Source: Terramyces sp. JEL0728 (lineage: Eukaryota; Chytridiomycota; Chytridiomycetes; Rhizophydiales; Terramycetaceae). Taken from it: a stretch of 34,137 bases of DNA. Made by a program: the position numbers and the translations under genes. A model generated the notes under the pieces. It did no database searches. It worked only from the letters and a program-made list of their open reading frames with translations, and had not been told where the DNA came from. Positions 1 through 34,137 of this stretch are shown piece after piece (the stretch's first letter is position 1; the number at the start of each line of letters is the position of its first letter). The stretch is from the NCBI GenBank assembly GCA_027603945.1, contig JADIIU010000133.1, positions 1 through 34,137 on the forward strand. The letters are read 5' to 3'.

Positions 1-235
1 AACAAATGAACTTACCACAACAGAACCTGCGACTACCTCAGAGCTGTCCTCCACAACTGAAGGAGTAACTACTACTGAAGTTACACTCACTGAAAGTACA
101 AGTACAGTGGAACTTACGACAACTGAAGGTGCTACAACAACTGAAAGTGCGACAACCATTGAAACCACAACTGAAGTAACAACAAATGAACTTACCTCAA
201 CAGAACCTGCGACTACCTCAGAGCTGTCCTCCACA
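1..235 (+). repeat. 55-bp direct repeat, two copies 180 bp apart, in mucin-like gene
   Basis: The stretch at 1-55 recurs at 181-235 with a single mismatch (a/t at the 17th base). Both copies encode the same Thr/Glu-rich segment (TNELT-TEPATTSELSS). The offset of 180 bp is a multiple of three, so gain or loss of a unit keeps the frame. This is typical of length-variable surface proteins. Confidence 0.85.
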
Positions 236-1631
236 GCCGTAGGTACAACGACCATTGAAACTACAACTGAAAGTGCAACTGCCATTGTATTGACTACAAC
301 CGAAGGTTTCACTACTATAAAAACAACCACCAAATCAACAGTTATATCAACTAGTGAACTTCCAACCTCAACTATAGGATTGACCACTACCGAACTTACA
401 TTGACTGAAACTACTTCCCTTGCTGTTGAAACATCTACAGGTAAACTATCCCATTAATCTAGGCACTGCAACTGTTTCTACTTCAACCTTGGAGGTTACA
501 ACAGGAATATCTTTGACAATTGAATCCACCAGCGCAGCTGTAGTTAGTACCACCGCTGAAACTTTATCTTCTGAAAGCACACAAGCTACTGCGGCAATTA
601 CTTCGACTGGAGCAATTACCTCGACTGCAATAATCGCGTCAAGCACTGTACATACTACTGCTGCTACAGGAACAACTGTTGGCATTGTTTCTACATCAAC
701 TGGAGCAATTACTTCGACTGCAATCATCGCGTCAAGCACTGTACATACTACTGCTGCTACAGGAACAACTGTTGGCATTGTTTCTACTTCGACTGGAATT
801 ACCTTAACTCAAGAAGGCACAACTACCCAGGCTACGATACCCACCATACAAACTACAGGAACAACTGTTGGTGTCGCATCTACAACTACAGGAATTCCCT
901 CAACTTCTCAAAGAATTACAACTACCGGCGTTATATCACCTACTGGGACTGTATCAGTCACCACAGCTGTTGTTGAAACTACAAGCACCATTACTGTAAG
1001 ATAAAATTGACTCTAGGGTATATCGTCAACCTTCAAAACCACAACCAAGACAAAAGCAAGCAAAACGACCACTAAAACAAAGCCTGCTGCAACAAAAACA
1101 ACTACCAAAATACATTCTATTACAACATCTAAAACTAATACAAAGTCTTTGAACCCCATTGGAGGACAATCTACTAGTTCTACCGCTCCAACTCCGACCG
1201 CTACTTCCAACTGCCCTGTATTCCCTGCTATTACTAATGGCCAAGATTGCAGTGCTTTTGCGGAAGGATACACTACTTGTTCAGGCGACTCTGGATCAAC
1301 CAACTCATCAATTGCAATTTGCGATCATAATGCCTTTGTCTTGATACAGTGTGCAGCTGGTACCTCTTGCAACACAAATTTCGGGTTTGCAATGTGTGGG
1401 TATCCTTGCCAGAACAATTCAGGATGTGGAACTGTTTACCCGGATTTAAGTGATGTTACTGGATGTACTTTTGGTAACTACGCTTGCTCTACCACTCAGA
1501 TAGCTGTCTGTCAATACACTGATGTATTTATGAGCACTGGGTATGCTATTCAAGATTGCGGACCTGAGCAGCACTGTGTAGAGCTGTCGGATGGGAGTGT
1601 CGGATGCCAACTCTGCAATAATTTTAGTTAA
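1..1631 (+). CDS. Ser/Thr-rich mucin-like surface protein with Cys-rich chitin-binding-like C-terminus (5' end outside window)
   Basis: The frame is open at the left edge, so the N-terminus is missing. Two tiny introns, 441-462 (22 nt) and 996-1016 (21 nt), join three exons. The first about 380 visible residues are almost only Thr, Ser, Glu, Ala, Ile and Val, partly in tandem repeats, as in heavily O-glycosylated stalks. A Lys/Thr-rich linker follows, then a C-terminal region of about 150 residues with regularly spaced Cys. That region seems to hold two related units: GYTTCSG...IAICDH...QCAAGTSC and NYACSTTQIAVCQY...DCGPEQHC. Both resemble the CBM19 chitin-binding pattern (C, C, then C-x-x-GT-x-C). 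I infer a secreted cell-wall or spore-wall protein. The CBM19 match is by eye; the mucin-like nature is certain from composition. Confidence 0.75.
609..794 (+). repeat. 93-bp tandem repeat, two copies, in mucin-like gene
   Basis: Two adjacent copies, 609-701 and 702-794, differ at only a few positions and encode the same 31-residue unit starting GAITSTAIIASSTVHTTAAT. A diverged partial third copy (ATGTTVG-like text) follows. Near-identity at the DNA level suggests a recent duplication or ongoing homogenisation. Confidence 0.9.
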
Positions 1632-1666
1632 CTTTTGAATAAATTGTTTATTTTTCGGACATCTAA

Positions 1667-2197
1667 ATGTACAAGACAAAAATAGAATCCAAACAGGCAG
1701 ATTTGAAAAAGACGGTTAAACCAAAGGAAAGGAAATCAGCCATCGCCTTGACAGATATTCTTGCACTGGAATCAATATTGTTTAGTCTCCAGTACATGAA
1801 TCTAAAGCAAAAGGTTGTAATAAACACAGATCTTTCAGAACTGAGGAGTTTGAAAGCAATAGAAAAAGAAAAGGAGAAATTGGAAGCTGAACTGGATTAT
1901 TTGAACAGATTGACGAATATTGATTTCAACTTGATGATGATGGTGGAAGATAATATGCGGAAATTTTCGCAACTAAAGGATTTTGTAGATTTACATTCAA
2001 AAATGGTCAGTGAAATGGAACTGGAAGAGTTTAAACAAAATCTAAAAGAACTGGAAATCAATGAGGACTGGAATGTAGCAATGATTGATAGTCTGAATAG
2101 TGCAGAGAATAATTCAGAACAACAAGAGTTTTATTCGAATGAAGCAGAAATCAAATTGAAATTACAGGAGCAAAATAATGAATTTATATTTAAATAA
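1667..2197 (+). CDS. hypothetical coiled-coil protein, 176 aa
   Basis: This single-exon gene starts 35 bp after the mucin gene stop. The N-terminus is Lys-rich. From about residue 60 the sequence is dominated by Leu, Glu and Lys in heptad-like spacing (for example AIEKEKEKLEAELDYLNRL), so an alpha-helical coiled coil is likely. No signal peptide, membrane segment or catalytic motif is visible and I do not recognise a family. Its stop lies 3 bp from the convergent Bud20 gene, so the 3' UTRs must overlap. Composition and length support a real gene; function is unknown. Confidence 0.7.
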   Translation: MYKTKIESKQADLKKTVKPKERKSAIALTDILALESILFSLQYMNLKQKVVINTDLSELRSLKAIEKEKEKLEAELDYLNRLTNIDFNLMMMVEDNMRKFSQLKDFVDLHSKMVSEMELEEFKQNLKELEINEDWNVAMIDSLNSAENNSEQQEFYSNEAEIKLKLQEQNNEFIFK

Positions 2198-2200
2198 ATC

Positions 2201-3005: not shown

Positions 3006-3075
3006 TCCCAATTTAGCAAAGGAAAAAAAGACATTGGTAAAAGAGCATAAATATTATTAAAAAGAAATCCAAAAT

Positions 3076-4081
3076 TCAGTAAGCTGTTTCTTGTTTGTCC
3101 ATCTTAATTGGTTCCTGGGGAGTCAGTGGCAATGTTGGTGATTTGTGGGTAATATTCATTGAAATGTCGGACGATGTCATTGCAGGACAGGATTTTGATG
3201 TTCGCAAATGTCTCTTCAATGCATCCTTTCTGGAAAAGGTTCGATTACAGCCAGCACAGTTGAAAATCATTGTGCGGTTATGGATTTGAGCATGTCTGGC
3301 AAGATCTATTATTAAACAAACCAATACCCTGCGACCTACAGAATTGGGCATGGCATTCAGCACATTGGTGGCTCTTATTTCTTGCTGGATTGTGAGTTTC
3401 TAGGTGGGATTTGAGATTGAAGGGTCTGGTAAACAACCGTCCGCAGCCTGGAATATGGCATTTAAACTGACCAGAATCATGCTTTTGTGGTACTGGTTCT
3501 AGACTGATGGAGGCAATCAAGAAGCCAGTTTTGATATCAGGTGTTTTGTCTTCTACGGAAAAATCCACACTGGTGGTTTGGCCAACTTTGATCATAGGCC
3601 CTCTAAGAGTAATCCATTTTCCAGCATGTTGGCCACCAGAACATGCTTTTAACGAGATTTCAGACATTTGATCTCTCAATGAATTCTAAATAAGTGATAA
3701 AATTACTGGTGAATTGCTGGCCCACATAAGCAGTTCCAAATTCGATGCTTTGGACTTTACCGTTGTTCTAAAAGTAACATTGTCTAATCCTGAAGCATGC
3801 GGATAAAGATAAATTTGATATAGTGGGATATACAAACCTTCTGGAACTGATGGTAATTCGCCGTAAACCTTTGATTAGCGAAATAAATACCTGTACAGAG
3901 CCGGCTTGCTGTATAGAAACAACTGGACTACAAATTAGCAATTACCGTACCTTGGGGAAATTTGGGGGTCGGTAATGATAATGGCAGAGCCGGGATTTAG
4001 CTCTGCAGCAAGTAGTCTTAAATCTGTTGTTAGTCGGATTTTACAGGTATGTTTCTGCATTTTGTTGCTTGTATCCAACAT
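3076..4081 (-). CDS. C2H2 zinc-finger protein with long novel N-terminal region
   Basis: Four short introns (3306-3327, 3686-3706, 3869-3890, 3928-3950) rebuild a protein of at least 305 residues. The C-terminal third has three C2H2 fingers: CHIPGCGRLFTRPFNLKSH, then CAECHAQFC-RSQDLARHAQIH, then CAGCNRTFSRKDALKRH. The middle finger has perfect C-x2-C-x12-H-x3-H spacing only once the 22-nt intron is removed, which validates the splice. The N-terminal about 200 residues (for example AAELNPGSAIIITDPQISP) match nothing I know. It is likely a sequence-specific transcription factor. The start is uncertain: the frame stays open upstream through a Cys-rich stretch (RVCCGAFHATYCGKVV) to about 4220 without an ATG, so a further 5' exon is possible. 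Confidence 0.75.
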
Positions 4082-5025: not shown

Positions 5026-5525
5026 CTAAGCAGAAGGGGATGGAGCGGTTTTTGGCTTCCTTTTAGATTGCCAGTCGTTCACTGCACTCTTTATAGCATC
5101 CTCGGCAAGCACTAACATTAAGACAATTTCTTACTGGAACAGTGTAGTTTGACTGGCGGAAGTGACAATTCCTTGGCAATATCAACATTTGTAATTTTCA
5201 TTGCATCCCAGACTGTTAATCCTTTGATTTTCTCAGTTACAAGAGATGAAGATGCAATTGCACTCCCACATCCAAAAGTCTTGAATTTAACATCCTTGAT
5301 TTCGCCTGTCTCGTCATCGACTAAAATTTGTAATTTCATGACATCACCGCATGCTGGTGCTCTATTATTAGCCAACTAGTACCCTACGAGGCCAGTTCCT
5401 ACGTTAATATCTTTTTTGTTTAGCGACCCGACGTTACGAGGTTTTTCATAGTGATCTATAACTTTTTCATGGTATAGTCTGGCATTCGCTGGTATTCTGA
5501 GTCTCTTGGCTATTACTTTAAACAT
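5026..5525 (-). CDS. ISU1: mitochondrial iron-sulfur cluster assembly scaffold ISCU/Isu1
   Basis: Introns 5112-5134 (23 nt) and 5362-5382 (21 nt) rebuild a 151-residue protein. The three cluster-ligand cysteines are present: C52 in GAPACGD, C79 in [11 protein letters not shown] and C122 in LHCSMLAEDA. The Hsp70-binding motif LPPVK is intact at 115-119. The basic N-terminus ([17 protein letters not shown]) is a mitochondrial presequence. ISCU builds 2Fe-2S clusters with Nfs1, Isd11 and frataxin and hands them on through Ssq1-type Hsp70. The C-terminal [16 protein letters not shown] appears only after splicing, where an A plus TG creates the Met codon. AATAAA follows the stop. It is head-to-head with the PLC gene. 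Confidence 0.97.
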
Positions 5526-5907: not shown

Positions 5908-8322
5908 ATGCAGACACAACCAACGCCAATAAAAAATACAAACAATCAGCTAGTAACAGGAACAGTCATGACCAAGTTAATGAAGCATGGCAGGGAACAG
6001 AGAATGTTAAAAGTTGAATTATACCCGCTGAATCTGCTGTTTGAGAGCAAAAAGAAAACATTCAATTCCAGTAATTGATATTGATCTAGTTTCATTTGAT
6101 AATATCATAGAGATCAGATTAGGACAGTATACGGAAAGGTTTGTTCAACAGGGAAAGTCCTCGGATGACGATTCGTCTTTCAGTATAATTTATTTGGAAA
6201 AGGGAAGATACAAGGCCCTTGATTTAATCGCACCTACACCTGAATTGTGTGCCGTATGGTATCCAGAGATTGATTTAGGGTCCAAGGATTAAATATGCTA
6301 CTTTCTAAAGACGCTTCAACAGTGCATGATTTGGTAGGATTACCAAAATGGCTTCAAGAAATGTGGAACAAAGTAGATGTGGGTTACCGAGGATCATTAA
6401 ATTTGGATGAAGTAACAGTGCTGATGAAAAAATTAAATATTCTGCTTACCAAAAACCAAATCAAATCTGCATTCAAAAACTCTAATATATCAAAGACCGA
6501 ATCAATCACGTTTGACGAATTTGAAAGACTATATCGAAACTTGAAATTTAGACCGGAAATTTCCAACCTATTTTCCCAAATATCTACCAATGGAATGACA
6601 ATAGCATTTGAGGAATTTAGAGAGTTTATTGTGAATGTGCAAAAGCAAGAATGGGAAGAGCAAAGAACTGAAGAGATTTACAAAAAGTTTGTGAATGCTA
6701 CTGGGAATATGGACTTTGATCATTTTACTTCATTTCTACTCTCTTCCAGGAATGCGGTATTCAAGAAGGATTACCGGGAACGACACCAGAATATGAATTA
6801 TCCTATATGTGATTATTATATTAATTCTTCGCACAATACTTACCTGCTTGGCGATCAATTTGCCAGCGAAAGCTCTGTAGAAGGTTTGTTTTGTTAATAC
6901 AGGATATATTAGGGCACTACTAAAAGGATGTAGGTGCCTGGAAATTGATTGCTGGGATGGGCCGAACGGACAGCCAGTAATATATCATGGGGGAACTCTT
7001 ACATCGAAACTCTCGTTTAAAGACGCGATAGAGACAATAATGAAATACGCATTTGTTGTTACAGATACCCCGTTGGTTTTATCTCTAGAGATTAGGTGTT
7101 CGTGGGAACAACAGAATGTAGTTGCCGAAATATTGGAAGCGAAATTGGGAGATTTTCTCGTTAAAACCACATCACACTCGCTCAATCCTGGTCAGCTATC
7201 TTCTGCTAATCTTGGTCAGCTGCCTTCTACTAATCCTGGTCAGCTGCCTTCTCCTAATCAGCTAAAAAACAAAATTTTAATCAAAGGCAAATGTTTATCG
7301 TTGCTTGGCGATGACATTTCAGATGATGACTTGAATAGTGAAGGCGGCTCTTCTCCAACTTCGCCAGCATCTATATATAGAAAGCTATCCTATTCAATGA
7401 CGATTACTACGACGCCTACTCAAGATATACCACCAGAAAAAGGTATTAGACGGTCCAAGTCTAAAGTTGCTGGAAGTACTTCAAAAGCGCTTACAAGTTT
7501 AATTGTATATCTGAGGGGAAAGCCTGCCAAACATATAGAATCCCTCACAAGTACTTTTCCATTCAACTGTAGATATATTGCTTAAATTCGATCAAGTATT
7601 TTCATTTACTGAAAATAAAGCGCTGGGGCTAATGCAGAAACAACCAGAGGAATATCTGAAATTAACTAGAAATAATGTGATACGAGTCTATCCATCTATT
7701 TTGCGGTTAACTTCTTCAAACTACGATCCGATACCCCATTGGCTCGTTGGAACTCAAATGGCAGCTCTTAATTTCCAGACCTTTGGTTCATTGTGGTTAA
7801 CAGTAGATACAGCAATGGAAATTAATCGCGCACTATTTGCCACTAATGGAGACTGTGGATATGTACTTAAGCCAGAGCGTTTAAGGTCTGTGAATTATCC
7901 AATATTGATTTCAAAGAAATTGACAGTAATAGTGCTATCAGCCCAACAGTTGGTTCGAAGCAAAGAAAAAGCGGCTTCCAGCACAAAATCAGCAGTGAGC
8001 ATAGAAATCATTGGCGATCCTAAAGATTCACAAAAGCAAAAAAGTCAAACCGTGAAATCTAACGGGTTTAACCCAATATTCAGCAAGGAATTTTCATTCA
8101 ATATTACCCACCATGATTTATGCTTTCTGCGCTTCAACGTGGAAGATGTTGACGGCTTGACAACTGACTCGTTTGGCAGTTTTATCATAGCTTTTTCTTG
8201 TTTGGAGTGTGGTAATACTTTTTAACGCAGGTTATCGTCACATTCCTCTCAATAACAAGCAGGGTGAACGAATCGGATTTTCCACCTTATTTGTAAAGAT
8301 CTCGATACTAGATGTAGAGTAG
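5908..8322 (+). CDS. PLC1: phosphoinositide-specific phospholipase C, PLC-delta-like
   Basis: Five tiny introns (6071-6089, 6259-6278, 6884-6902, 7551-7572, 8212-8230; 19-22 nt) rebuild 771 residues in the classic order PH, EF-hand-like, X box, linker, Y box, C2. The catalytic histidines are H296 (SSHNTYL) and H341 (YHGGTLTSK), 45 residues apart as in mammalian PLC-delta1. Calcium-binding Glu/Asp in LEIDCWDGP are kept. The Y box has RVYPS, SSNYDPIPHWLVGTQMAALN and GYVLKPERLR. The enzyme hydrolyses PIP2 to IP3 and diacylglycerol at the membrane. Oddities: the usual LENHC after the X box reads LEIRC, and the X-Y linker has NPGQLPS-like repeats. The PH start was chosen because it alone gives the TKLMKHGREQRMLKVE...LLFESKKK core and follows a stop. 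Confidence 0.96.
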
Positions 8323-8948: not shown

Positions 8949-10147
8949 TTAAGGGGGAAGAATTGCATTGATGGCGCTAGTAAGAATATTTTTCCTATCA
9001 TCAAAAGACACTTACAATACTTGGTGGATGATAATGCGCATATTTGAGGTATCAGTACAGCAAGTGACATGCAGCTTGACTCTATGAGCATGCTCATCCA
9101 ACAAGAACTTTTTTTTGAAAAACTTTAATGCAGCGTCAGAATCCCTCAATTCGCCTGCATTAAAACATATTACCTTTGAATTCTGGAAAATGCTTCTTTA
9201 CATCTACTAGCTTCACTTTGATCTCGAATAGGTCTGATTTGTTTAGGAAAACAATAAAGCTTGGTTTGCTGAGTAGAGGATGGGATACGAGAGATTGTAA
9301 GAGAAAGATTGAATCTGCCATTTGGTTCGTTTCTTCTTCATCCTCGACAACCATATCATAAGATGCCAATGAAGCGACAAACACCACGGCGTTTGCATTA
9401 TCAAAGTATGGCAGCCAATATTTTCTGTGACGCGGATTGCCATTGACATCAATGAAATGCAACTTTTGGTTATCAATCGTAAAGACAGTGTCTACTATGG
9501 TTTCCGTTGGGATCCTTAGATTGATAATATCTTCGTTTGTAATTTGAAAAGTTGGAGCACAGATTCTTTCTGCGTTTGACAGGAAGCTGGGATTAGCAAC
9601 GATTACAATGAAGCTGTTCCGGGCAAGTCTTTGATGAATAGGATAGTATCGATTACTATTGTTTCATTGTATAGATCAAGTATTAAAGGCGCGATTTCCC
9701 TCCCAGTAACTGTTTCTTTTGTCAATGTTGCTAATTTCGCATATTTCTAAGTAAATCTAATCATTACTTCTGCTATATCTTTGATATTTGCAAATTGGAG
9801 GAGTATGGTTTTACAATATATTGCGATATTCGTCCACACTAATTGTTTGTAATTCTCTTTCTCGTCATTTGTAAATCCGTTTCCGTGAATGATTTTCAGT
9901 TGTTTTAATAGAGTGGATTTCCCCGAATCAGAGCTGCCCAATATTAGCACCACTGGTTGTTTTTGCCTTTCTTCGAATGCTTTCTATTTATCAATATCTT
10001 TGTACCTTTTCTTTGAAGAGGTAGGCTTCGATATCGCGCGCAGCCTTATCCTGTTCACTACATTAGGAGGATATCTTACCGCCTTTTCATTCTTGGCGTT
10101 CCTGTGGCAGAATCTGTCTCTTTGAGTTTTGCTGGAGTGTCTGTCAT
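8949..10147 (-). CDS. heterotrimeric G-protein alpha subunit paralog, lacks catalytic Gln
   Basis: Six introns (10058-10079, 9984-10005, 9747-9767, 9587-9606, 9155-9173, 8995-9015; 19-22 nt) rebuild 357 residues, the normal G-alpha length. G1 is GSSDSGKST at about residue 56 (canonical GAGESGKST). The switch-I Arg and Thr are present in NLRIPTETIV. G4 is FLNKSDL and G5 is TCCTDT. G3, normally DVGGQ, is DVNGN at 205-209, so the glutamine that positions the hydrolytic water is Asn. The N-terminus (MTDTPAKLKE) lacks the MG-x3-S myristoylation signal and Cys for palmitoylation. The helical domain is present. It is probably a slow or non-hydrolysing, atypically localised G-alpha. It shares intron positions with the paralog at 10.9 kb. 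Confidence 0.9.
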
Positions 10148-10890: not shown

Positions 10891-12023
10891 ATGGATGAGA
10901 AAATTGAGCGCAAAAAGTATTGAATATTTAATTGGTAGCACTCAAGCAAAGAACAAGGAAATCGAGCAGTATTTGAAGGAAGAGCGAAAAGCATACGAAA
11001 AATACCTCAAAGAACCAAAGTTACTGATACTAGGATCTTCAGATTGTGGAAAGTCTACACTATTAAAGCAACTGAAAATATTACACGGAAATGGGTTTAC
11101 CGATTTAGAAAAGAAAGCAGCCCGTGATAACATCAGAACGAATTTGATCAATGCGCTCACTCAGATTTTAAAGAGTATCCCATTACAGTCGGAGGATAAA
11201 GCCAACTATCTTTCCTTTTCAGAGGATTGGCCCACGCCAGATAATATCATACCGACAGAGATCGTGCAGATGGTGAAGAGATTGTGGGAGATACCAGAAG
11301 TAAAAACTAGCTGCAAAGACCTAAAGTTACCCGAAACAACTCCATTGTAAATTGTTTATAACCAAGTTTTTTCAATGCTGTGGAAAGATTGAGCGAGCCA
11401 AATTATTCCCCAACAGACGAAGGTTTGTAATATTAACAGTAGATATCCTTAATCTGCGCACAGTAACTCAGTGTGTGTCGGAAACAATATTCAACATCAA
11501 CGGTAACAATTTCCACTTTTTTGACGTGAGCGGTCTCAGACACCATAGAAAGGCGTGGTTCAGTTACTTTGAACATGTCACTACTGTACTTTTTGTAGCT
11601 TCCATATCTTCGTACGACCAAAATCTTGTAGAAGATAATACTGTGAATAGAATGGTCGATTCCCTCGTACTTTTTGAGCAAATTACAAACCACAAACTGA
11701 TGGCAAAGCCGCAATTTGTATTGTTTTTCAACAAGAAGGATCTCTACGAAGTAAAGATTAAACAAATCGGGATAAGAGAGTTCTTTCCCGAATATGATGG
11801 TGATTTCCGCTAATCTAGATAAACCAAATAGCGCTTCTAAAGGAGTTGCATTCTTCAAGAAAAAGTTTCTTTCGCAAGTGCCTTCAAACAAAGAAGTCGT
11901 GGTCCATATTACGTGCTGCACAGACACGAAATCAATGAAGGTCCTAATCAGTTCCATGCTGTACTGTTTTGCTAATCTAGATTAACCATCGTCCAAGGAA
12001 ACATTGACTCGGTAGGATTTTGA
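10891..12023 (+). CDS. heterotrimeric G-protein alpha subunit paralog with natural Q-to-L in switch II
   Basis: Introns 10917-10938, 11347-11366, 11423-11442, 11800-11818 and 11961-11980 (19-22 nt) rebuild 343 residues. G1 is GSSDCGKST. Switch I is DILNLRTVTQCVSET with Arg and Thr kept. G4 is FFNKKDL and G5 is TCCTDT. G3 is DVSGL at 191-195: the catalytic Gln is Leu, the same change as the constitutively active Q204L/Q227L mutants of animal G-alpha. No N-terminal MG-x3-S is present (MDEKIERKNT). The C-terminus is NIDSVGF, similar in length to the receptor-binding NLKDCGLF end. At least three introns share position and phase with the neighbouring paralog, so the two are duplicates. I infer it is GTP-locked or regulated in another way. 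Confidence 0.9.
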
Positions 12024-14455: not shown

Positions 14456-14661
14456 GCTAAATTTGCAAAAATAAACATCCACGCTTTCGCGTTGAATCAA
14501 ACTCATGCAAGAGAAGCAGGTTTAAACTCGATGGTATTATTCATTTGGGACACTTGAATGGATAAAATTCAAAAATCTAATATAACAAATTTATAGATTG
14601 GAATATTATCAAATAGATGGATCGTTGTTACGGGTAGGCAAATCACTGAGTCAATTAATGA

Positions 14662-17409: not shown

Positions 17410-17420
17410 CAAAAATTAAA

Positions 17421-19631: not shown

Positions 19632-22600
19632 TTATTCTTCTGGTAGTTTCTTTAGTTTATGCCATGGTGTAGTAGTTAATTTCTTTTGCTCTTCAGGATC
19701 TTCACTGTCCATTAGTATTTCGACTTCTTCCAGCAAAACTCCAGCCTTATCTTGCGCTATTTTCTGGTCCAGCTGCTTTTGGGCTACGTGGATTTGATTG
19801 CTCTTGATACTATTTCTCTTGTTCAGTTTGCCAAGCGGTACAATCTTTTTCAATGAATGGTCGTTTTGATATGCCACTACGGAAGGTATTTCTTCTGTTA
19901 GGAGTCGAATTGCAGCTGAACTAATTGCATTATGCGGTACATCTTCTTCCTTTTCACCACTTGCCGTAAGCAATCGAGGCTCTGGATAAAAGTTTTTCAT
20001 GTATGGCTCTAAAAGATACTTTAACCTTTTCATTGAGTAGGTAAAGTTTGGTTGGGGCGGAACTGCTTCATATCCAGTAGCTTTCTTTATTTCCCACAGT
20101 TCTGTGGCTACTATTTGGCCAACTTTCTAATATTAGCAGCGCTTACCAATAAGTTGTGAGATATTGTTATATCGGGGTCGTATAGTGCGTGTTCCATGGC
20201 ACATAATACTGCAAGGTACGACTCTAGCGCCAATTCTTTCTTTTGAGCTATGCAACTAGGATTAAATATTTGTACAGAACTGCCAGTGATTTTTCTTCGT
20301 ACGGAAAAGTCACACCGTCCACAGTCTACCATTATGAGCATCTTACCCAATCGTTGAAATTAACCCCGTGGCGTGTTAGCTTTACAGCACATATTCGGGT
20401 ATTCAAATCCTCAATTACGCTACAGTTATTGCTACGTACTTGTGGTCTGCAATGTCTGAATAGTATGCAACTCTGCTTTGGACGGCTGGCACTTGTGTAA
20501 GATAATCTTGAATTACACGAGCCTCGATTAGCTGCATCATACCTTGTTCATGTATTGGGATTTTGACAGATAAGGTGGATTCCAGTGGAGATCCAAGTAG
20601 GTTGTTTTCATTTCAAACGTAGAGTTATCATGCACCAGACGAGCTTTCACTGCTACAGCGACCGCTCTAAAAACGTTATACGTAAGTCTAGGCACGATCC
20701 TTGATATATAAATATCCTAAAGTCAGAGCAAAATTACTTTGAAAAGGTTATTTTCCGACATGCACTCTAATGATAAATAGCCAACAACACCCTTTGATTT
20801 GCATAGTGATGAAATAATGCTCACAACTTCCAGAATTCTTTGCTGTGATATTGACTGCTGAGGGATGTATGTTCCGAATGGCTTCTCATCAACCATTTTC
20901 GTTTCCGATGATGCTACGAGTTTCCATTCGCCATTAGGCTGCACAAATAAGCCCACTTCAACTATATTGAAACTATTTTGATTTTCAAGAGGTAGGATTT
21001 CCAAAATCCCGCCATTTCCCCAAATCCCCAGTATAAAGTCTTCATTGTGCGTGTGTGATAATACCTGGTCTACTATATCTGCAGTGGCTATATTAGGAGA
21101 AATTACTATAAATAATGGGGAAATAGTCCATCAAACCTTCAAAATTATTTGCCCTCGTCAGTTTCCACAGTAATTTTTCAGGTCTTCCATGTGTAATTTC
21201 TCTGACCTGTTCCTCTAGAGATTCCAATTCTTTTACTTTTGATATCCAATATTTCGGTGTTGCTTTGACGGTTGTTCCAGCCTCGTTTATCCAATTCGAT
21301 AAAATGCACTTATTTTCTCGAAACTGTTCTTCCACTTTGGTACCGGAGCCAAAGTAAGGGCAATTTAAATACTTTTTTGATTAATTCAATATTTACTGTA
21401 CAAACTCCAGCGATATAAGTGGAAAATTCATCTGCAATTAAAATTGGATTTCTCTTTTGGCAGATTTCCTTGATTTTGTCCATTGCAAATTGACTAAAAT
21501 ATAGCGAGGTCTCAGTGAGAGATCTATTTTCAAAATGTTTTGCATTTTCTGGAATGACAACATGCAGTTTTCCTGATTCAATTGGGTTAGGGAAATGCGC
21601 AATGTCTAGCTGTCAACCGGCACTTACCAAAGAATTCAGTTAGTTTTTCATCAAATCTCTCATGCTTGAATGGCAGAACAATGATCATTCTTAAATTTGG
21701 ATCATAAAATAGTGGGAAAAGTCTAGTTAAAAGTGTATACCTTTCCACATCCATAAATTCATTTGGCTTTTTGAAATTTTTAGGCACAACTACAATTAAA
21801 ATTCTGATGTTAACCACAAATCACCGCAGTTTGGCATGGAATTCTTCTTTTGAATTTACAAATTTGTGCTGTATTTCATTAAATTTGGAATATGCTTCCT
21901 TCAATTTTGCCTGAATAAGGAATACCATACCTTATGGATCCCGTAAAATCTCTTTCTCATTTTGAATATTGTCCAGTAGTGCTTAAATACTCTTGTTGCG
22001 CGATGCAATTCCAGCAACTCTTGTCTCTGAACTCTATAATTAGCTGTCTATTGCCTCGTTCTATAATGTCTAAAAACTGATTGTATGAGAGAAACTGCCA
22101 GCCCTCTCCCGATTTCTGCATTGAAAAATGTTTGACCCGGTTTGTTTAGAATCCTCAAAACCTATATAATATTTAAATTACTGTTTTCTTGTTATAAATA
22201 CAATCCATCATAACCTCATATGGCAAGGGATAAATTAATGGGTCGCTGCATCTATTAATTACTGTTTCGCAGTCTAAAATAATGCTTGGGACTGAATTAG
22301 GCAGATATTACTGGAATATTTGATACTAAGGCCGATGATTCCGTCAATGATCCAAAACGCAACGCATTTGATGTCTTTCTCTTTGATTTTTGTATTAAAC
22401 TTTGCGTAAGCTCCTGTTGTATCGTCCACCATGCCATTTTCGATCACAACAACCCATCCAGGTGCTTTTTTCCCTGGAATCGGTCTAAATGTTTCATTAT
22501 AACCTGCTACTGATGGCTGGTCGGTCGTTGATTCAATTGAGCTTTCTGGCGATGCAGAATTCACAATTACAGATTCAATTGCCGTTAACGGCCTCCCCGG

Positions 22601-25257: not shown

Positions 25258-27553
25258 CTAATGCGGACTTGTCAACAGGTTTCCTCTGCTATCATGGCAT
25301 CTATCTCTTGGAATTTCCGGCCCTCCAACTGCCCACTGTTGAAGAGTGATATATGTTGTATATACCATCGCCAAAGTTCCAAAAATCACTACCAGCGAGT
25401 CTTTTGCGATTACCCACTTGCTTTTTGAGACGTTCAGATGGAACAAGGCAGGGTAGATGAATGATAACGGTATACAAGCAAAGCAGCCTACTAAAGACAC
25501 CACCTTATCCAAATTGGTTGATCCAGCCCAAGCAGTCAATCCAAGCATCATAGTCAATCCAGCACGATATAGATTCTTTTCCCATTTGATTAAAGTAGAC
25601 GCCTTCCCGGTGGATAGCCCAAATATTGCTGAATTAATTTCAAAGTACCTTGCTCAGTGATTCTAATTGCAGGATAAACACACAATGGGAATGAAAGCAT
25701 TATCGCAATTGCATACAAGAATTGAATCCCAGAAACTACAGGTGATTTAGGTAGATTCAAGAATACAATTGTTTCTACTTCATCGCCCAGCGCGAGATAA
25801 CCAAGAGTACCAATAGTTAGGAACACCCCTCCAATTACAACCATTCCATAAGTCAAGACATGATTGAAACGTTCCGGTTGTTTCATCGACTCTGCAATAG
25901 GCAGCATTAAACTGGGTTAAAAAGCAATTACCAAATTCCTTCAAATGCAAACATAGCTGTTCCAATAAATAGTGGGAATGATTGAAGATTAACCCAAGGG
26001 ACATTTTGAACTCCTCTTTCTCCAATAATAACAAAATCATATATAAAAATATATCCTAATCCTAAAAGAATAAACACATCGGCAATTAGTGAAGTAATCC
26101 CAAAGTTTTTGATTTTTCTAACCCACGCAAGAGGAATATACAAGAGCAATTGCAGTAAAATGAAAAACCAGTCTGGCAGTATGATTTTGCAGTTTGATGT
26201 TATCATAAGCAAGTCCCTTAAGTTTTGCCCTACAAAAATAAAGTAAGCACAGCAGAAACCCATTTGAGATACTGCAATCGATGCTAACACCAATTTCCGC
26301 ATTTTACTGCCGTAAATATGTTCTCCAATATCGCCGAATGATTTATGGCCCAGAGCTCTACTGGTATCTACCAATAACATCATGCAATGCAAAGTCATGT
26401 AGCCTAATACAAGCATCGTAACTACAGAAAACACCAAACCGCCATTTGAGAACGCTTTGGGAAGGAACAGTACTCCGGTTCCAACGAACGCCTTTATCAT
26501 CATAAAGAATGCTTTAGCTTCAGAAGTTCCTTTAACAGTAGTATTGGTTGTAGAGCTGGCTCTTGCTAGTAGAGGTGCTGATTCCTGGACTATCTCGTCT
26601 TCAATATCGCCAGGGACTGCTGGAAGCTCATCTTCTTCATCTTCATCATCACTAGGATAGACATCACCACCATAAAATCCGTAAAGAACCAAAAAATCAA
26701 TAAAGTTGCTCGTTACAAAGTTTGGTGGTCTTTTGCCCTCTCTTCTAGCTTTGTTTTGGAGAAAGTGTCTTCTAAAACCGCCAGGTTCGCGAAGATCTCC
26801 AGCGGTTTGCATTGTAGGTGATACAGCGATAACAACGTCCGGCTCGGAATTTCTTCTCTGCCTTTGTCCTTCTTTAGATTCTCTGTTTTCTTTCCACTTG
26901 TAAATATCCCTGGTAATGGCACCTACAGTCAATTTTAAGTTACCTCCCACGAGAGAATGAGACATTGAGCCAAAGGAAGCACCAGAGTCACTAGGCGGTT
27001 GCACCAAATGCTCGGCGACAATATTATTGACTTCCTGCACACCTAAAATTTCATCAATATCGGAATCGCTATTAATTCCTGCAGCAACATTTTTCAGGTG
27101 CGCAGCTTGGAATAGCGATGAGGGTGTAGCCCCTTTAACCGCCGACGATCTTCGCGGGATAGATTTTGGAATAGATCTAGACAATGAGCCGTTTGGACTT
27201 TTGGATTTTGTATTTCCGAATGATTTTGATAATATTTTTTCTGTTTCCAAAGTTGCTTTAGTTTTTGGGATTGGAATGCTGGTTTCTTCCTTTGGTAACG
27301 ATTGAATTTTAACTGCCGCTTGAGTTAGCAAACTTTGTTTGGGTTGCTCAACCACAATTGGCCGGCTTGGCTCTATTTCGTAATCAGATGCTTTAAAAGA
27401 AAGCGGTATTCTATGGTCTGATTCTATTTCTTCGTGCAGCTCATCCGTTGGTAATTCATGCTTTTGAATTTCTGGAGAGGCATTGACAGAAGAGTTTTCA
27501 GAAACCTTCTTCTTTCCCTTCTGCTTCTTGTTCTGCTTTTTCTTTGGAGGCAT
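25258..27553 (-). CDS. vacuolar-type amino acid transporter, AVT3/SLC36-like (AAAP family), 751 aa
   Basis: Two 20-nt introns (25912-25931, 25629-25648) lie in the membrane domain. The N-terminal about 330 residues are soluble: a Lys-rich start (MPPKKKQNKKQKGKKK), Ser/Pro-rich text and an acidic cluster (SDDEDEEDELPAVPGD). The transporter begins with AKAFFMMIKAFVGTGVLFLP, the AVT3/SLC36 signature, followed by about ten further helices, including the conserved FAFEGICLMLPIAESM restored by splicing. Such proteins export neutral amino acids from the vacuole or lysosome by proton exchange. The long regulatory N-tail resembles yeast Avt3/Avt4. Substrate range cannot be read from sequence. Confidence 0.92.
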
Positions 27554-27872: not shown

Positions 27873-28339
27873 ATGAAAATCCTCCTCCTTGCCCTTTCAG
27901 TATTCAGTTACCGTATTTCTCAGCAACCCATAACAGCACTAGAATCAGTATCTTGGTGCTCTTCTCCAGAAGATATTTTTGTTCCAGAATCGCTAACGTT
28001 GCTGCCAGACCCACCTGTTCGAGGGGAAAAATTGACGATTCAACTAAAAGGACAGTTAAAGGAAAAAGTTGATCAATCGAGTGTAGCGCAAGTTCGAGTT
28101 AAGCTCGGGTTTATCCAACTTGTCGACCAACCGTTTGATCTTTGTGAACAAATTGGACAAGTTGGAAAGGAATGTCCTTTGGAAAAGGGAGAGTTAGTAG
28201 TAGAAACTACTGTGGATATTCCCGGCCAAGTTCCTCCTGTAAGTACCATTAACGTTAGGGAAAGTACAATATTCATGTCACTGGCACCAACCAAGATCAG
28301 CTTCCTATTACTTGCATGGATGCTACATTTAGGATGTAA
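27873..28339 (+). CDS. NPC2: secreted ML-domain lipid-binding protein, NPC2/PG-PI transfer type
   Basis: A 20-nt intron (28239-28258) gives 148 residues. A signal peptide (MKILLLALSVFSY...) precedes SVSWCSSPEDIFVPESLTLL, PDPPVRGEKLTIQLKGQLKE, a DLC...KECPLEKGE disulfide region, VDIPGQVPP and, after the splice, GKYNIHVTGTNQDQLPITCM, which carries the conserved last Cys of the fold. ML-domain proteins bind sterols or phospholipids in the vacuole lumen or outside the cell. A 24-nt GT...AG piece at the signal-peptide end could be an in-frame intron but lacks a stop, so I left it in. It converges on the aspartyl protease gene 32 bp away. Confidence 0.92.
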
Positions 28340-28371
28340 AAGTTAATATATTAAGTATCGACAGAATATAT

Positions 28372-29710
28372 TTAAAGAAATATGTATGATAAGAACAATA
28401 ACATGTACCAAGGACGATTCTGCTCTTGGCCGTTCTTCTGCTGTGGCAAGGATGAATTGCTGGAGATGCTTGGTAGTGCAGTTGCTGGCGTTGCAAACCC
28501 AATCCTATTGTTTCCAAAATCAAATACATTGTAGAATTGATTGATGAATAACGCTCCAGCAATACCGTATTGCTGTCCAGCTGCGCCTAAAGTAGCTGGA
28601 GGCGATGAGAAGATGGAGAGACAAACGTTGCTGGAAATCTGAGCAACCTGTTGGTTTCCAGAAAGAGTGATTGAAAGACCAGAAGTGCCAAATGAAAATG
28701 TAACAGGTGAAAGAGAAGCTGCCTGCGAGCAAGGTATCACATATCCACTGTTTGTAAGTGTGAATTTCGCGTTCAATTGTTTGACGATTGCAGTTGGCAA
28801 GACAAAAGCAGTGGTACCAGTGTCAATAAATGTGGTCAAAGAAGATGAAAAGATGTTATTTCCGCCAACTGAAATAGAGTCCAAGTTGACTGCCCAATGT
28901 GCTTGTCCTGGTACAGAGTCGAACCTAGGATTAAAAACGACTTGCCATGAAATCTGGCCAGTGTATCTAGTAGGGTCTACTCCGCCAAAAGTAATTTCGC
29001 CAGAAGTGCCAGCTGCCGCATTTGGACTGGCTTGCAAGTTGTACCAGAAAGAAACAACTGCATTGTTGTTTGAAAACTTGGTAGCAAGAGACTTGAATAC
29101 ATTTGCTGCAGTTGAATCTTGCATTAACCCACTATTACCATCAGAATTGGAGGGCCCTAAGCCGATAATTCCGTCAAGATTAGCCGTAGTGGTTTGAATG
29201 GATGTAGCTTCACATAGAGGTTGCCCTTGAATCGCAAAGTTCCCAATGGTTACTGTATCTGTATTTATAGTGCAAATAACCTGAGTCCCATCACCATAAG
29301 TTACCTGCTGAGTTCCGCCATTAGTAGTTTTATAAGTAGAGCTAAATTAGTCAAGATAAACCTTTTTACATTATTGAAACTTCTCTGCTGGGCACAAGAT
29401 GTTGATGTGCACTGGTTTGATCTCACCCAGAACAGACTTGATCCTGTATCGAACAGGACAACCATAGGTTGCGGTGGTGTTCCCACTCCAATTGTGCCGA
29501 CCAACTAAAGTTAAAAATAATTACAGTTGCGGAAACGTAGTCCGCTCCAATTGCTCCAAATTGGGTAGAGTCCTTATTCACTACTCTTTCAAACGGAATT
29601 CGTTGAATTTCGCTTGGGGTGATATCTTTGGTACTGGCAATTCCGCCATAGTTGCTGTCAAACAATTTGGCTTGTGTAGAAATGGCCAATATCAGTGCAT
29701 TCCAGTTCAT
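28372..29710 (-). CDS. pepsin-like (A1) aspartyl protease, secreted and membrane/GPI-anchored
   Basis: Introns 29505-29524 and 29342-29361 (20 nt each) rebuild 432 residues. A signal peptide (MNWNALILAISTQAK) and short propeptide precede LVGTIGVGTPPQP and the first catalytic Asp, D81 in LFDTGSS. YGDGTQVICTINTDTVTIGN and LDGIIGLGPSNS follow, then the second Asp, D283 in FIDTGTTAFVLP, and FINQFYNVFDFGNNRIGFA near the end. A Ser/Gln/Asn-rich tail and a final hydrophobic stretch (WYMLLFLSYIFL) suggest anchoring, as in yapsins. Splicing restores the flap region that the unspliced frame lacks. It is a likely cell-surface protease for wall remodelling or nutrient digestion. Confidence 0.94.
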
Positions 29711-30187: not shown

Positions 30188-32913
30188 ATGCTGCTGTTGA
30201 AAAAACAAGAGCTGGCAGAATATTTGAAAATCAAAACTAAACCAGAACTACTAGATGAATTTGCAAAACAAATATCGTTGATAGGAACATATATACCAAG
30301 TAGTTCATCATATAAATACCCGCCAGAAGAAGGTCAGGATTTTAATGTTATAAATACCACGCCCGCTCAATACGCACACTTTACAATGTCCGCCAAGATA
30401 GTAGCAGCGCTGCAGCTAGGAATGAGTGAAATATGTAAGATTTGCCCAAAAGATCTTGTCGCACCATTGTTACTTGCAATACAAGACCAAGGAATCGTTG
30501 CACTCAACCCAATGTTATTTTACAGTACGTTATGTTAATCGTAGCCAGATATAATCTTCGTCAGTTGATGGACCAATGCCTGGTGCAAATGGACGGAGAA
30601 ATACAACATCTGTTGAATTTTTTAGAGGATTGTTTAGAAGTAATAATGCAGACCAATGTTGCGGAAATGTACTTGAATTATTCGAATAGCACTTGTGTTT
30701 GTCTGGCAGCGGAACTGGGAAAATTCTATTTTGTAATTGAAGATTATCCCAAATCAAAAGAGAAGCTGGAGTTGGCCGTAACAATGGCTAAAGCTTTCAA
30801 TATCCAATTTCCAACAGAGATAGTAGATTTTAGCACAAGGCAGATTGAAAATATGCTGGCGGTTTGCAACATGAAAAGCACAATATACAGTGATCCTTTG
30901 AAAACAATCGTAGCAGATTTGCTACCCAACAAATATCCGCTAGAAGCTAAAAGGTTAATCAAGTACACGGTGGATATTCAGGACAAAGGTGATGAATCAG
31001 TTTTCATTGCGTGGTGCAACAGCATTACCCAAAGCTTAAAGATATTTGAAATAGGAGAATCAATATCAAATAACGGTATTTGGAATTAACAATCAGAGTT
31101 GGTGGAAATCTATTTGCAAGTAAAAAAAGAGTTTCCTCCAATTACAGCAGAAAATGTAAATACACTCTTGATGATACTTAAACTTGCACTGACAGACCTT
31201 ACTAATGGTAAATATGAATCGCAGCCTTCAATAGAATTGATACGATTGTGGAGACACTTGTTTCAAACGATTTTGCTTGGATTATCTTTAATAGTGGATT
31301 TGAAATCGTTAGAATTGGATGAATTTATTGCAAACTTTTTCAACGATCACAAAATTGCAAAGATTGTTGTCAATGTCGATCGGCTAGAAAGAAAATCACC
31401 TTCTGGTAAACAAGTTGCTATCAGAGAGATATTGCTGACGTATATATCCACGCAGGAAGAGTCAAAAGTTACGGAATTGAAAAATATAGTAGGATTGGTA
31501 TTCTTCCTCTTACTTAGCATCCAATGATGGTTTTCAAAGAATTGATTGAATTGGTAGAGACTCTGAAAAAAAGAAAGTCATACAACCAGGCGTTAGTATT
31601 GGCCACTCAGATTGAACCCTTTTGTCCTCCAGAACATTCCCAAAGGTTGGTTGACGTCAAGAATAGCTGCATGATATCCCAAATCATCATTACATTGAAC
31701 GAAAACAAAGTAAATGTGGAAGGGCTGTCAAAGCAGCTGCTTGAGAACTTGAAGAAACTGCCAAACCAAACACTAGAACAGTGCTCAAGCATAATAACAA
31801 CCTTACTGAACAAAAATCTCACAGAATTGGCGTTACAGTACATCCAAAACCTGCAAATATTAGAAAACAAGAATCTTTTTAATTTTGGAAGAATTTGCCT
31901 GTTGATCAACGCAATGTGGGACAATTTGAAAAAGGTTGACAGTATCAACAACCTGCAGCCAAATATATGTCAGGAAATAGTGGATTTTGCGTATCAGGTT
32001 ACACTTTGGCTTTGCGAACCAGATCCTGATACTTTGGTAATTCTTTTTAATGCAGAATGTACAGAAATTAGTGGTGGAGTATATCTGCAAACGGGATATT
32101 AATATTTTCAAATTGATCGTTGGTTGTTGTGGCGGTTATGTCAAACCACCTATACCTGTTCAATTGCTTGGACAGTTTTCTTATTTTTCAGTATCAACCA
32201 AGCAAAATTGGGAAATTTTGGATCTTTCACTGCCACCATTGAATTTCACCAATGTAAAACCGGTCCAGTCGAATCTAATTACAAACTTTATGACTACAGC
32301 AGCAGAAGCAATAGTCAAATCGAATATGAAGATTGATGTTTCCGGTTATTTCTTGTTGGCCCATCTGCAATCTGGCCAAGCCAAACATCGAGAAGCAGTC
32401 GTGTATTCCTTGATTAATTTAGATCTATTGTTAATGGGATTCTGATAGAGACAAACTATTTTCAAAAGAAAAAGTTTTACATGCAGTTTTATACCTCGCC
32501 AAATCTCGGATTGTTAATCAAGGAGCTGTTAGCCGTTGAAGGTAATTCGTGCTTAATCAGACTATTTCTCGGCTTTATTCTTTATGCAAGGCCAAGAAAG
32601 AGATGCCACTCTATACACCGAGATGTTCAAGATCGTAAAGAAAATACCCATCAGTTCGTTCAACACAGTTGAAAGCGTAGACCCACCAACGAATTTAACA
32701 GAGGCTAGTTTGCTATATGCGCTATATGACGTCCATCTGATTGAGCATTTTGTATCACTATTCAAAAAAGAGGATATGGCGGATCACGTCAAATTACTAA
32801 TCAATCGCCTAAGGAGCATAGTATTCGTACCGGGCTTTGACGGCTTCAAGTTCTACGTAGACAAACTTAATGTATGGTACATTGGCACACTAATCGACAA
32901 GTATCAAAAATAA
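30188..32913 (+). CDS. INTS8: Integrator complex subunit 8-like protein, 856 aa
   Basis: Introns 30525-30544, 31076-31096, 31498-31517, 32037-32055, 32430-32448, 32486-32522 (37 nt) and 32542-32560 rebuild 856 residues (human INTS8 about 995); exon lengths sum exactly in frame. It is an all-helical TPR-like protein. Points recalling INTS8 are NPMLFYTRYNLRQLM, then CVCLAAELGKFYF...YPKSKEKLELA, a late helical block and EDYFSALFFMQGQERD near the C-terminus, where the last two splices restore the order. INTS8 recruits PP2A to Integrator, the RNA polymerase II termination and snRNA-processing complex. The match is by pattern only and moderate. The ATG follows a T-rich patch; an in-frame upstream extension exists. 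Confidence 0.6.
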
Positions 32914-32921
32914 ATTCTTTA

Positions 32922-33314
32922 TTAAGCCAGTCCCAATTTCTTCATTCTTTCCAACTTTACTCTCTCCTTGTCTTTAATATACTTGTTTCTTCTCTTTGGC
33001 ACTTGCACATGAACTGGCTCTTTGCCTCTCCTGAACCATTCCAAGCTTTCCAGTAAATATTTTCTCATTCTAGTTTTCACCCCCATGGTTTCCAATTCTT
33101 CACTTGATTTAGAGAGTAATTGCTCCATAGATTCAAACTTGTCAGCCAGCTGGTCGCATCCTCTCCCAATTGATTTTAAATATTCTGCTGGGGCAACGTC
33201 TTTAGTTAGTGTAAATATACCTTTGGCATGCAGTGGAATATATTTGATTTTCTGTAATCTTGGTAGCTGGATGTATTGTAGAGTGCCTATACTGCGTTTT
33301 AGTATTGGAAACAT
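32922..33314 (-). CDS. FYV4: mitochondrial small ribosomal subunit protein mS41 (IGR-motif, Fyv4-like)
   Basis: This 130-residue protein has a presequence-like start (MFPILKRSIGTLQYIQLPRL) and then the IGR motif: AEYLKSIGRGCDQLADKFES followed by LETMGVKTRMRKYLLESLEW. The basic C-terminus (VPKRRNKYIKDKERVKL) suits rRNA contact. mS41/Fyv4 is a fungal mitoribosome small-subunit protein, so its presence implies a translating mitochondrion. The start is the ATG at the presequence; an alternative non-ATG extension lies upstream. It converges on the INTS8-like gene with only 8 bp between stops. Confidence 0.9.
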   Translation of the reverse strand: MFPILKRSIGTLQYIQLPRLQKIKYIPLHAKGIFTLTKDVAPAEYLKSIGRGCDQLADKFESMEQLLSKSSEELETMGVKTRMRKYLLESLEWFRRGKEPVHVQVPKRRNKYIKDKERVKLERMKKLGLA

Positions 33315-33502
33315 TGATGCAAGGAAAATTTTTTGCAGTTGGATTGCAACCAACTAAACGATGATATACAGCATTATCGATAAACCTGATCATTATAAAT
33401 ATCGTTCTTTTATCAAAACGTTTTTTTGTGCAATTTGACTATACACGTCATCCAAATGTCAGATTGAAACTGCAGCCTTTGTAATTTCCGCAATTCAATA
33501 AA

Positions 33503-34137
33503 ATGGTGAAAACAGGAACTGCAGCCCCAGTTGCAGTGGATATTATGGTTAACGCGTTTTGTAACGCTTGCGTCGTAGGTCAATGGTCACTAATCCAGGT
33601 AATCTATTCTTTCCGCTGTTGAAGATTACTATTGAATGGGAAGGAGCAACTGATTATTCCATATTCGTAACACTCGCTTTATCTTTTCAATTAGTTGCTA
33701 CAGTATTAAATTCCTTTGTAGACTCATATACAAATATTACGGCCGCATATGTGGATATAATCCAATCAATAATTCACTCTGTAGCGGTTGGGTTTATTTT
33801 GTATTTGTTGACCATAAGGGCAAAATGCGCAAAATTAGTTACATGGACAAAGCATGTCAATCTGCCTCTTGCAATTGTACATTTTCTACTTCGAGCTGCT
33901 ACTACAGTGTTCAGTATTATGGCTGACTTGGCTACTATTGGAGGATATACTTTGCAAGATCCATTTCCGATGGCGAGACAAGTAATCAGAATGGCTATGA
34001 ACTGCACCGCATTGATTGTCATTTTATACTTTGAGACATTCATTACTTTTTACATTCGCAGTCAATTTGCCTCGGATGCCCAGGTAGTTAACAGGATCAA
34101 CATCTACTCGTTCGTCTTGTCGTTTATCATCACTGCT
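33503..34137 (+). CDS. multi-pass membrane protein, N-terminal part (runs off right edge)
   Basis: A 23-nt intron (33556-33578) joins MVKTGTAAPVAVDIMVNA to SMVTNPGNLFFPLLKITIEW. From there the frame is open to the edge. At least four helices are visible: YSIFVTLALSFQLVATVLNS, IIQSIIHSVAVGFILYLLTI, LPLAIVHFLLRAATTVFSIM and CTALIVILYFETFITFYI, with another starting at IYSFVLSFII. It faintly recalls small ciliary or ER TMEM proteins, but I would not name a family without the C-terminus. It is divergent from mS41 over 188 bp of promoter. Confidence 0.7.

Follow-up and report, generated by a model that had tools for sequence, protein, structure and literature searches.

Ultrashort predicted spliceosomal introns, mostly 19-22 nucleotides long, in the genome of the chytrid fungus Terramyces sp. 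JEL0728

The DNA analyzed here (the window) is one whole contig of 34,137 nucleotides (nt) from the assembly of Terramyces sp. JEL0728 (15,016,339 bases, 231 contigs), a free-living saprotrophic chytrid of the Rhizophydiales, family Terramycetaceae; a plasmid collection searched with the window gave no match, as expected. Among its genes are those for a C2H2 zinc-finger protein, ISCU, phospholipase C (PLC), two G-alpha proteins, a rhodanese, TIM54, a Trm11-like protein, an IQCH-like protein, an amino-acid transporter, an ML-domain protein, an aspartic protease, and a protein of 868 amino acids (868-aa). We modeled 58 introns across 25 gene models (with the two halves of the IQCH-like gene joined), and their lengths are 19 nt (9 introns), 20 nt (27), 21 nt (11), 22 nt (8), 23 nt (2), and 25 nt (1); 55 of the 58 are thus 19-22 nt long, and the longest is 25 nt (Table 1). 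The typical intron opens at base +1 with a short GTAWTT-like donor; the last A of its YTAAY-type putative branch site falls at position 14 or 15, and its YAG acceptor ends 5-6 nt beyond that A. We conclude from the sequence, with a probability of roughly 0.9, that the window is nuclear chytrid DNA whose protein genes are predicted to contain U2-type spliceosomal introns, 19-22 nt long and in rare cases up to 25 nt. The original prediction of about 65 introns in 20 genes, nearly all of 19-23 nt, compares with the 58 modeled here, and it needs refining by a few introns of 23-25 nt and by one GC-AG intron (22034-22054).

Because 55 of the 58 introns came from our own gene finder with a length prior favoring 19-22 nt, these lengths are weak proof by themselves. 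Thirty of the 58 introns lie within a gap-free alignment to a protein from Boothiomyces or the PDB (seven of 19 nt, 15 of 20 nt, five of 21 nt, and one each of 22, 23, and 25 nt), as expected if splicing restores conserved proteins, and 29 of these 30 were modeled without the aligned protein, the GC-AG intron being the exception. They are spread over the ISCU, PLC, both G-alpha, aspartic protease, rhodanese, TIM54, IQCH-like, and 868-aa protein genes. The strongest case is the 868-aa protein gene, for which a homology-free model and the 868-aa protein of Boothiomyces sp. JEL0866 share 686 identities without a gap, in an alignment that crosses six introns of 19-21 nt. In the IQCH-like gene, nine junctions are gap-free to the JEL0866 protein and two more to that of Boothiomyces macroporosus; against the latter, a deposited model without parts of the gene, 4 of 10 junctions are gap-free and 6 of 10 fall on gaps. 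The TIM54 open reading frame (ORF) matches two Boothiomyces proteins at 84-86% and, over 78% of its length, a deposited Terramyces protein at 100%. Alignments to PDB proteins were assessed visually in printed output, and the introns at 9587-9606 and 29505-29524 were counted as gap-free though their alignments begin only ∼5-6 residues upstream. Of three 19-nt introns singled out beforehand in the PLC region, those at 6884-6902 and 8212-8230 have exact borders, being gap-free to PLC-delta1. Removal of the third, at 6071-6089, brings a PLC-type PH domain back into frame (E 1.5e-4), and a 5-residue gap next to the junction blurs its exact borders. The PH domain piece (5908-6292) itself probably belongs with the PLC gene at 6295-8322.

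Public gene models offer a second view of the same borders. Three public Terramyces proteins of the contig map onto the window without a mismatch, all their introns being GT-AG. They have 21 introns in total, among which 15 measure 19-22 nt; 13 of these 15 were already in our own models, and two were adopted from the public ones. The remaining six, in proteins spanning 19632-23191 and 30188-32913, are 29, 34, 49, 49, 51, and 104 nt long, as would be seen if the introns were real but had true borders lying further apart (29-104 nt). At all six places, however, the JEL0866 protein has coding residues, and an intron of 19-25 nt, in one case with GC-AG borders, fits and aligns gap-free. In the classes of 23-40 and 41-120 nt, moreover, GT-AG yields fewer introns than false borders do (see below), and we regard the longer borders as very unlikely. 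Ultrashort introns are already present in public databases, where they have been partly misread. This has a practical side: at 6 of the 21 introns, where longer ones were chosen, the deposited Terramyces proteins lack residues, and the public models examined lose or distort exons.

Table 1. Introns modeled in the window. Gap-free, junction within a gap-free alignment to the protein named; JEL0866, protein of Boothiomyces sp. JEL0866; B. mac., protein of B. macroporosus; public, public Terramyces gene model.
Gene	Position	Strand	Length (nt)	Basis
	441..462	+	22	gene model only
	996..1016	+	21	gene model only
C2H2 zinc finger	3306..3327	-	22	gene model; spliced protein zf-C2H2 52.1 bits
Zinc finger	3686..3706	-	21	gene model
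Zinc finger	3869..3890	-	22	gene model
Zinc finger	3923..3945	-	23	gene model
Zinc finger	4024..4044	-	21	gene model
ISCU	5112..5134	-	23	gap-free to PDB 5t0v
ISCU	5362..5382	-	21	gap-free to PDB 5t0v
PLC-type PH domain	6071..6089	+	19	PDB 1mai supports frame; gap adjoins junction
PLC	6884..6902	+	19	gap-free to PLC-delta1
PLC	7551..7572	+	22	gene model; alignment region poorly conserved
PLC (C2 domain)	8212..8230	+	19	gap-free to PLC-delta1
G-alpha 1	9155..9173	-	19	gap-free to PDB 9sh6
G-alpha 1	9587..9606	-	20	gap-free to PDB 9sh6; alignment start ∼6 residues upstream
G-alpha 1	9747..9767	-	21	gene model
G-alpha 1	9984..10005	-	22	gene model
G-alpha 1	10058..10079	-	22	gene model
G-alpha 2	10917..10938	+	22	gene model
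G-alpha 2	11347..11366	+	20	gap-free to PDB 9sh6; nearest gap ∼9 residues upstream
G-alpha 2	11423..11442	+	20	gap-free to PDB 9sh6
G-alpha 2	11800..11818	+	19	gap-free to PDB 9sh6
G-alpha 2	11961..11980	+	20	gap-free to PDB 9sh6
Rhodanese	12268..12287	-	20	gap-free to PDB 6mxv
Rhodanese	12364..12383	-	20	∼4 residues inside 6mxv alignment start; left out of validated set
Rhodanese	12545..12565	-	21	gene model
3' end of gene model 14609-15498	14646..14665	-	20	gene model only
TIM54	16592..16611	-	20	gap-free to two Boothiomyces proteins; identical in public
Trm11-like	18466..18485	+	20	gene model; beyond aligned part
Trm11-like	19230..19248	+	19	gene model; beyond aligned part
Trm11-like	19384..19403	+	20	gene model; beyond aligned part
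IQCH-like	20127..20146	-	20	gap-free to B. mac.; identical in public
IQCH-like	20256..20275	-	20	gap-free to B. mac.; identical in public
IQCH-like	20326..20346	-	21	identical in public; Boothiomyces proteins gapped
IQCH-like	20420..20439	-	20	identical in public; Boothiomyces proteins gapped
IQCH-like	20523..20542	-	20	identical in public; Boothiomyces proteins gapped
IQCH-like	20717..20737	-	21	gap-free to JEL0866 and B. mac.; identical in public
IQCH-like	21088..21106	-	19	gap-free to JEL0866; public 49 nt
IQCH-like	21372..21396	-	25	gap-free to JEL0866 and B. mac.; public 34 nt
IQCH-like	21606..21627	-	22	gap-free to JEL0866; identical in public
IQCH-like	21804..21824	-	21	gap-free to JEL0866; identical in public
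IQCH-like	21911..21930	-	20	from public; then gap-free to JEL0866
IQCH-like (GC-AG)	22034..22054	-	21	placed using, and gap-free to, JEL0866; public 51 nt
IQCH-like	22162..22181	-	20	from public; then gap-free to JEL0866
IQCH-like	22292..22311	-	20	gap-free to JEL0866; identical in public
Amino-acid transporter	25629..25648	-	20	gene model; after splicing, Aa_trans match of 275.6 bits over 343-724
Amino-acid transporter	25912..25931	-	20	gene model; same spliced Aa_trans protein, 275.6 bits
ML domain	28239..28258	+	20	gene model; after splicing, ML domain match of 96.0 bits
ML domain	28336..28355	+	20	gene model
Aspartic protease	29342..29361	-	20	frame supported; gap adjoins junction; left out of validated set
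Aspartic protease	29505..29524	-	20	gap-free to PDB 9snt; alignment start ∼5 residues upstream
868-aa protein	30525..30544	+	20	gap-free to JEL0866; identical in public
868-aa protein	31076..31096	+	21	gap-free to JEL0866; identical in public
868-aa protein	31498..31517	+	20	gap-free to JEL0866; public 29 nt
868-aa protein	32037..32055	+	19	gap-free to JEL0866; identical in public
868-aa protein	32403..32422	+	20	gap-free to JEL0866; public 104 nt
868-aa protein	32542..32560	+	19	gap-free to JEL0866, flanks 25/25 identical; public 49 nt
Last gene model (extends past window)	33579..33598	+	20	gene model only

The preference for 19-22 nt was compared with chance in three ways, which agree. First, the pattern GTA ... 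YTAAY ... AG was counted, without a gene finder, at lengths of 12-60 nt on both strands of 240,348 bases of the genome, which gave 62, 70, 40, and 18 places at 19, 20, 21, and 22 nt, respectively, and 1-14 places at each other length. In 234,137 bases, the control donors GCA, GCG, GCT, ATA, GAA, and GGA gave no peak at 19-22 nt, the donors GTG and GTT gave a slight rise at most, and replacing the acceptor AG by AC, TG, or AA gave no comparable peak. Because GC donors gave no peak in this count, GC-AG introns are rare. Second, we trained a gene finder on long ORFs from the sequence itself, gave it no motif beyond GT and AG, and weighted all intron lengths from 12 to 120 nt equally (a flat prior); it called 102 GT-AG introns in the 234,137 bases. 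Of these, 55 were 19-22 nt long, compared with 4, 4, 5, 5, 5, 8, and 9 for seven sets of false borders, and a peak at this length appeared only with GT-AG among the eight border pairs. At 23-40 nt, there were 11 GT-AG introns versus 18-30 with false borders and, at 41-120 nt, 30 versus 40-53; GT-AG therefore gives no sign of a longer class of introns up to 120 nt. Both the flat-prior runs and the prior-weighted run place the mode at 20 nt in these 234 kb. Third, a stricter pattern matched 900 times in the whole genome, compared with 162 matches for its reverse. Among the 100 of the 900 matches listed (contigs C1-C4), 87 are 19-22 nt long (62 of 19 nt, 19 of 20 nt, four of 21 nt, and two of 22 nt), none is 18 nt long, and the remaining 13 range from 16 to 45 nt. 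The claim that introns of mostly 19-23 nt run throughout the window is thus confirmed by the flat-prior peak and the false-border controls.

The anatomy of the introns was examined in 20 genome stretches together with the window (149 gene models, with the length prior applied). This set holds 270 introns, ∼1.8 per gene model, with 101 of the 149 models containing at least one; 262 of the 270 are 17-25 nt long, and the following figures refer to these short introns. The donor is GT, and position +3 is A in 90%, +4 is A in 56%, and +6 is T in 60%; the acceptor is AG, preceded by a pyrimidine at -3 in 90%. A strong or medium branch motif is present in 234, in which the putative branch A lies at position 14 (107 introns) or 15 (86), together 193 of 234, and is followed by a tail of 5 nt in 108 and 6 nt in 84. 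A count that used neither gene finder nor prior shows the same arrangement: for tails of 5 and 6 nt, respectively, 50 and 37 places have the A at position 14 and 29 and 24 at position 15, compared with 1 and 0 at position 13. What is constrained is thus the distance from donor to branch (14-15 nt) plus a tail of 5-6 nt rather than the length itself, and, since 14 + 5 = 19, this floor sets the shortest intron. It leaves no room for a polypyrimidine tract after the branch. The GC-AG intron at 22034-22054 carries a normal branch motif. That donor, branch, and acceptor of spliceosomal type are packed into about 20 nt, as had been proposed for the window, is supported genome-wide. Three further observations were not built upon. 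In-frame stops occur in 43 of 46 introns of 21 nt, from which no conclusion is drawn because the gene finder is blind to stop-free introns of 3n length. A negative correlation between loop and tail was set aside, as it seems to be driven by a few misassigned branch sites. A weak excess of position 14 with tails of 9-12 nt is expected from downstream AGs and is not claimed as longer introns.

That many ORFs break and then resume in another frame would also be seen if the segments were not introns at all but assembly errors, frameshifts, sites of translational bypassing, or pseudogene damage. Such events would not, however, start with GTA and end with YAG, nor would their lengths cluster at 19-22 nt around a branch motif in a fixed place, and the joined proteins are encoded by a related species. 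Further, two contigs (C199 and C111) carry near-identical copies of one two-gene locus, which is either allelic or recently duplicated. The nine coding differences in the first gene all fall at third codon positions and the 334-residue proteins are identical, and a one-base insertion or deletion falls inside a predicted intron, which is 21 nt long in one copy and 20 nt in the other. In the second gene, one intron is likewise 21 versus 20 nt, and the protein is identical over the last 217 residues compared. We give damage or error hardly any credence.

Several features of the window lie apart from this question. The G-alpha genes (9012-10147 on the minus strand and 10891-12023 on the plus strand) are divergent near-neighbors with a short ORF model (10407-10709, minus strand) between them. 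Positions 1-1004 (plus strand) encode a repetitive stretch rich in Ser and Thr that looks mucin-like by eye; near 600-790 it contains a block that is directly repeated. At 23303-25227 (plus strand), an F-box-like start is followed by a 580-aa frame resembling leucine-rich repeats (both labels by eye); no short-intron join from the start at ∼23303 to the frame at 23485 was found by hand. The start of the deposited B. macroporosus TIM54 (433 aa) resembles, by eye, the ORF at 16813-17412 upstream of TIM54 here, and that deposited model is perhaps a fusion of genes.

The genome retains components expected of a spliceosome. U2 small nuclear RNA (snRNA) is present (140 bits), with its branch-pairing GTAGTA box intact, as is U5 snRNA (86 bits). 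The gene model for the U2AF large subunit carries four introns of 19-20 nt, and that for SF1 carries one; once these introns are removed, the two U2AF pieces (251.7 and 27.9 bits) become one match of 334 bits, which exceeds the curated cut-off (310.3), and the two SF1-HH pieces (66.2 and 42.9 bits) become one of 114.8 bits. These components matter for the view that the segments are removed by a nonspliceosomal route, such as an endonuclease and ligase, self-splicing, or excision at the DNA level. The U6-donor helix (17 nt) of the human B complex lies 15 nm from the U2-branch helix (14 nt), and ∼52 nt from donor to branch would be needed without structural change (PMC6692369). Fourteen bases are far below this figure, and U1 and U6 genes were not found in our genome searches, both of which favor such a route. 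Against it, the GT-AG borders and YTAAY motif fit the U2 present in the genome with its branch-pairing box, U5, U2AF, and SF1 are retained, Stentor has all five snRNAs with introns of 15-16 nt (PMC9505925), and 20 bases would leave no room for a self-splicing structure. We therefore consider nonspliceosomal removal highly improbable.

The following points weigh against our main reading of these introns. U1 gave no match with the Rfam model across the genome, and searches for U6 with Rfam, core patterns (up to three mismatches), and a BLAST-like method gave nothing credible; we claim the absence of neither. Two weak U6 Rfam matches (27 bits) were rejected, as they lie inside a protein gene present in two copies, and a gapped U6 pattern tolerating an internal intron also gave nothing credible in the genome. 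RED_N, part of a human short-intron factor, had no candidate in the genome, and again absence is not claimed. The gene finder overlooked three of the 58 introns, all in the IQCH-like gene; two of them were adopted from public annotation, and the third (GC-AG) came from reading the Boothiomyces protein. A gap-free alignment is lacking for 28 of the 58 window introns: seven are aligned at a gap, an edge, or weak conservation (those starting at 6071, 7551, 12364, 20326, 20420, 20523, and 29342), and 21, including the three Trm11-like introns, lie outside any junction-level alignment. The branch motif is unclear in 28 of the 262 short introns (none in 19, a bare TAA in nine), and the intron at 31498-31517, whose border is validated by protein, is without one. 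Finally, splicing in RNA, the identity of the branch A, and the mechanism of assembly are what we infer from sequence.

How might so short an intron be assembled? Fourteen nucleotides cannot span the human geometry; the helices would therefore have to be shorter, with hardly any linker, or the donor would have to pass to U6 before or while U2 docks. We give this family of routes the best odds, with no choice made within it. At the 14-nt minimum, the U6-donor and U2-branch helices may sit directly next to each other. A single intron would then probably not hold U1 and U2 both fully bound, and the donor would be passed from U1 to U6 to form helices shorter than those of the human B complex. We tentatively suggest, at less than even odds, that early assembly departs from the textbook: if 14 nt cannot hold U1 and U2 both fully, U1 might be left out, might bind just transiently, or might give way to U6 ahead of the docking of U2. 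The introns may have been shortened by deletion down to the 14-nt floor; deletion to a threshold, as proposed for mikrocytids (PMC10245619), would explain the pile-up just above it. The floor need not, however, be physical. It could mark where deletion bias meets the lengths of the motifs (donor, 6 nt; branch, ∼6 nt), which nearly fill positions 1-15, and PMC10245619 proposes deletion bias against a functional threshold. Against this stands the branch at position 10 in Stentor (PMC9505925), by which motifs can overlap elsewhere. This alternative, which concerns the mechanism only, is possible if on the whole doubtful, and it predicts the same lengths as a physical limit, from which present data cannot distinguish it. 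If early assembly did depart from the textbook as suggested above, the sharp 14-nt floor would show directly how near the two helices can come in an active spliceosome, in a culturable fungus; culture maintenance of JEL strains is suggested by PMC7537106.

The original prediction held that few eukaryotes have such short introns, and this fits the literature available to us, which names ciliates, mikrocytids, a nucleomorph, and one intron of Trichomonas. At 19-22 nt, the introns of this chytrid come close to the shortest recorded for any nucleus and illustrate how little sequence may suffice for a spliceosome. We found no report of ultrashort introns in Terramyces, Boothiomyces, or other chytrids in a search judged from titles and abstract openings that left most subscription journals outside; as far as these searches show, Terramyces is the first ultrashort-intron fungus. 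Microsporidians, which are relatives of fungi, have few, relatively short introns (PMC10245619), and the single 23-nt intron of Trichomonas was reported in 2025 to be among the shortest known. Elsewhere, ultrashort introns belong to reduced parasites, relict nuclei, and ciliates, the last described as seemingly running against the trend (PMC10245619). The mikrocytids, with introns of 16-17 nt (PMC10245619), resemble Terramyces in uniform length and a conserved internal motif. They are, however, parasites with a strongly reduced spliceosome and, in M. mackini, 224 introns, whereas we estimate ∼17,000 for Terramyces by extrapolation from 262 in 234 kb. A chytrid with this estimated number and with the ordinary early splicing factors SF1 and U2AF adds a case not easily accounted for by reduction. 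The nucleomorph of the chlorarachniophyte Bigelowiella natans, with introns of 18-21 nt (PMC10245619; PMC12316389), is similar in length range, in its narrow spectrum, and in having many introns per genome. It is a relict nucleus with >800 introns in ∼300 genes, whereas Terramyces has a fungal nucleus, a 15-Mb assembly, and ∼1.8 introns per gene model. Paramecium and Nyctotherus also have ultrashort introns genome-wide (∼25 nt; PMC5014332), but these are ∼5 nt longer and belong to ciliates, not fungi. Stentor coeruleus, whose introns of 15-16 nt have the branch A at position 10 or 11 and a 5-nt tail (PMC9505925), shares with Terramyces the GT-AG borders, a fixed branch position, the 5-nt tail, and a conserved branch box in U2. 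The two differ in that Stentor has no strong branch consensus, whereas Terramyces has a strong YTAAY at 14/15, and in that Stentor has five identified snRNAs and introns in 18% of its genes, compared with U1 and U6 not found and introns in 101 of 149 gene models here. Short introns in humans require Smu1 and RED (PMC6692369), and there, as in Terramyces, the distance from donor to branch rather than the length is critical; the human limit is ∼50 nt and that of Terramyces 14 nt, which makes this chytrid a fungal system for asking how close donor and branch can lie.

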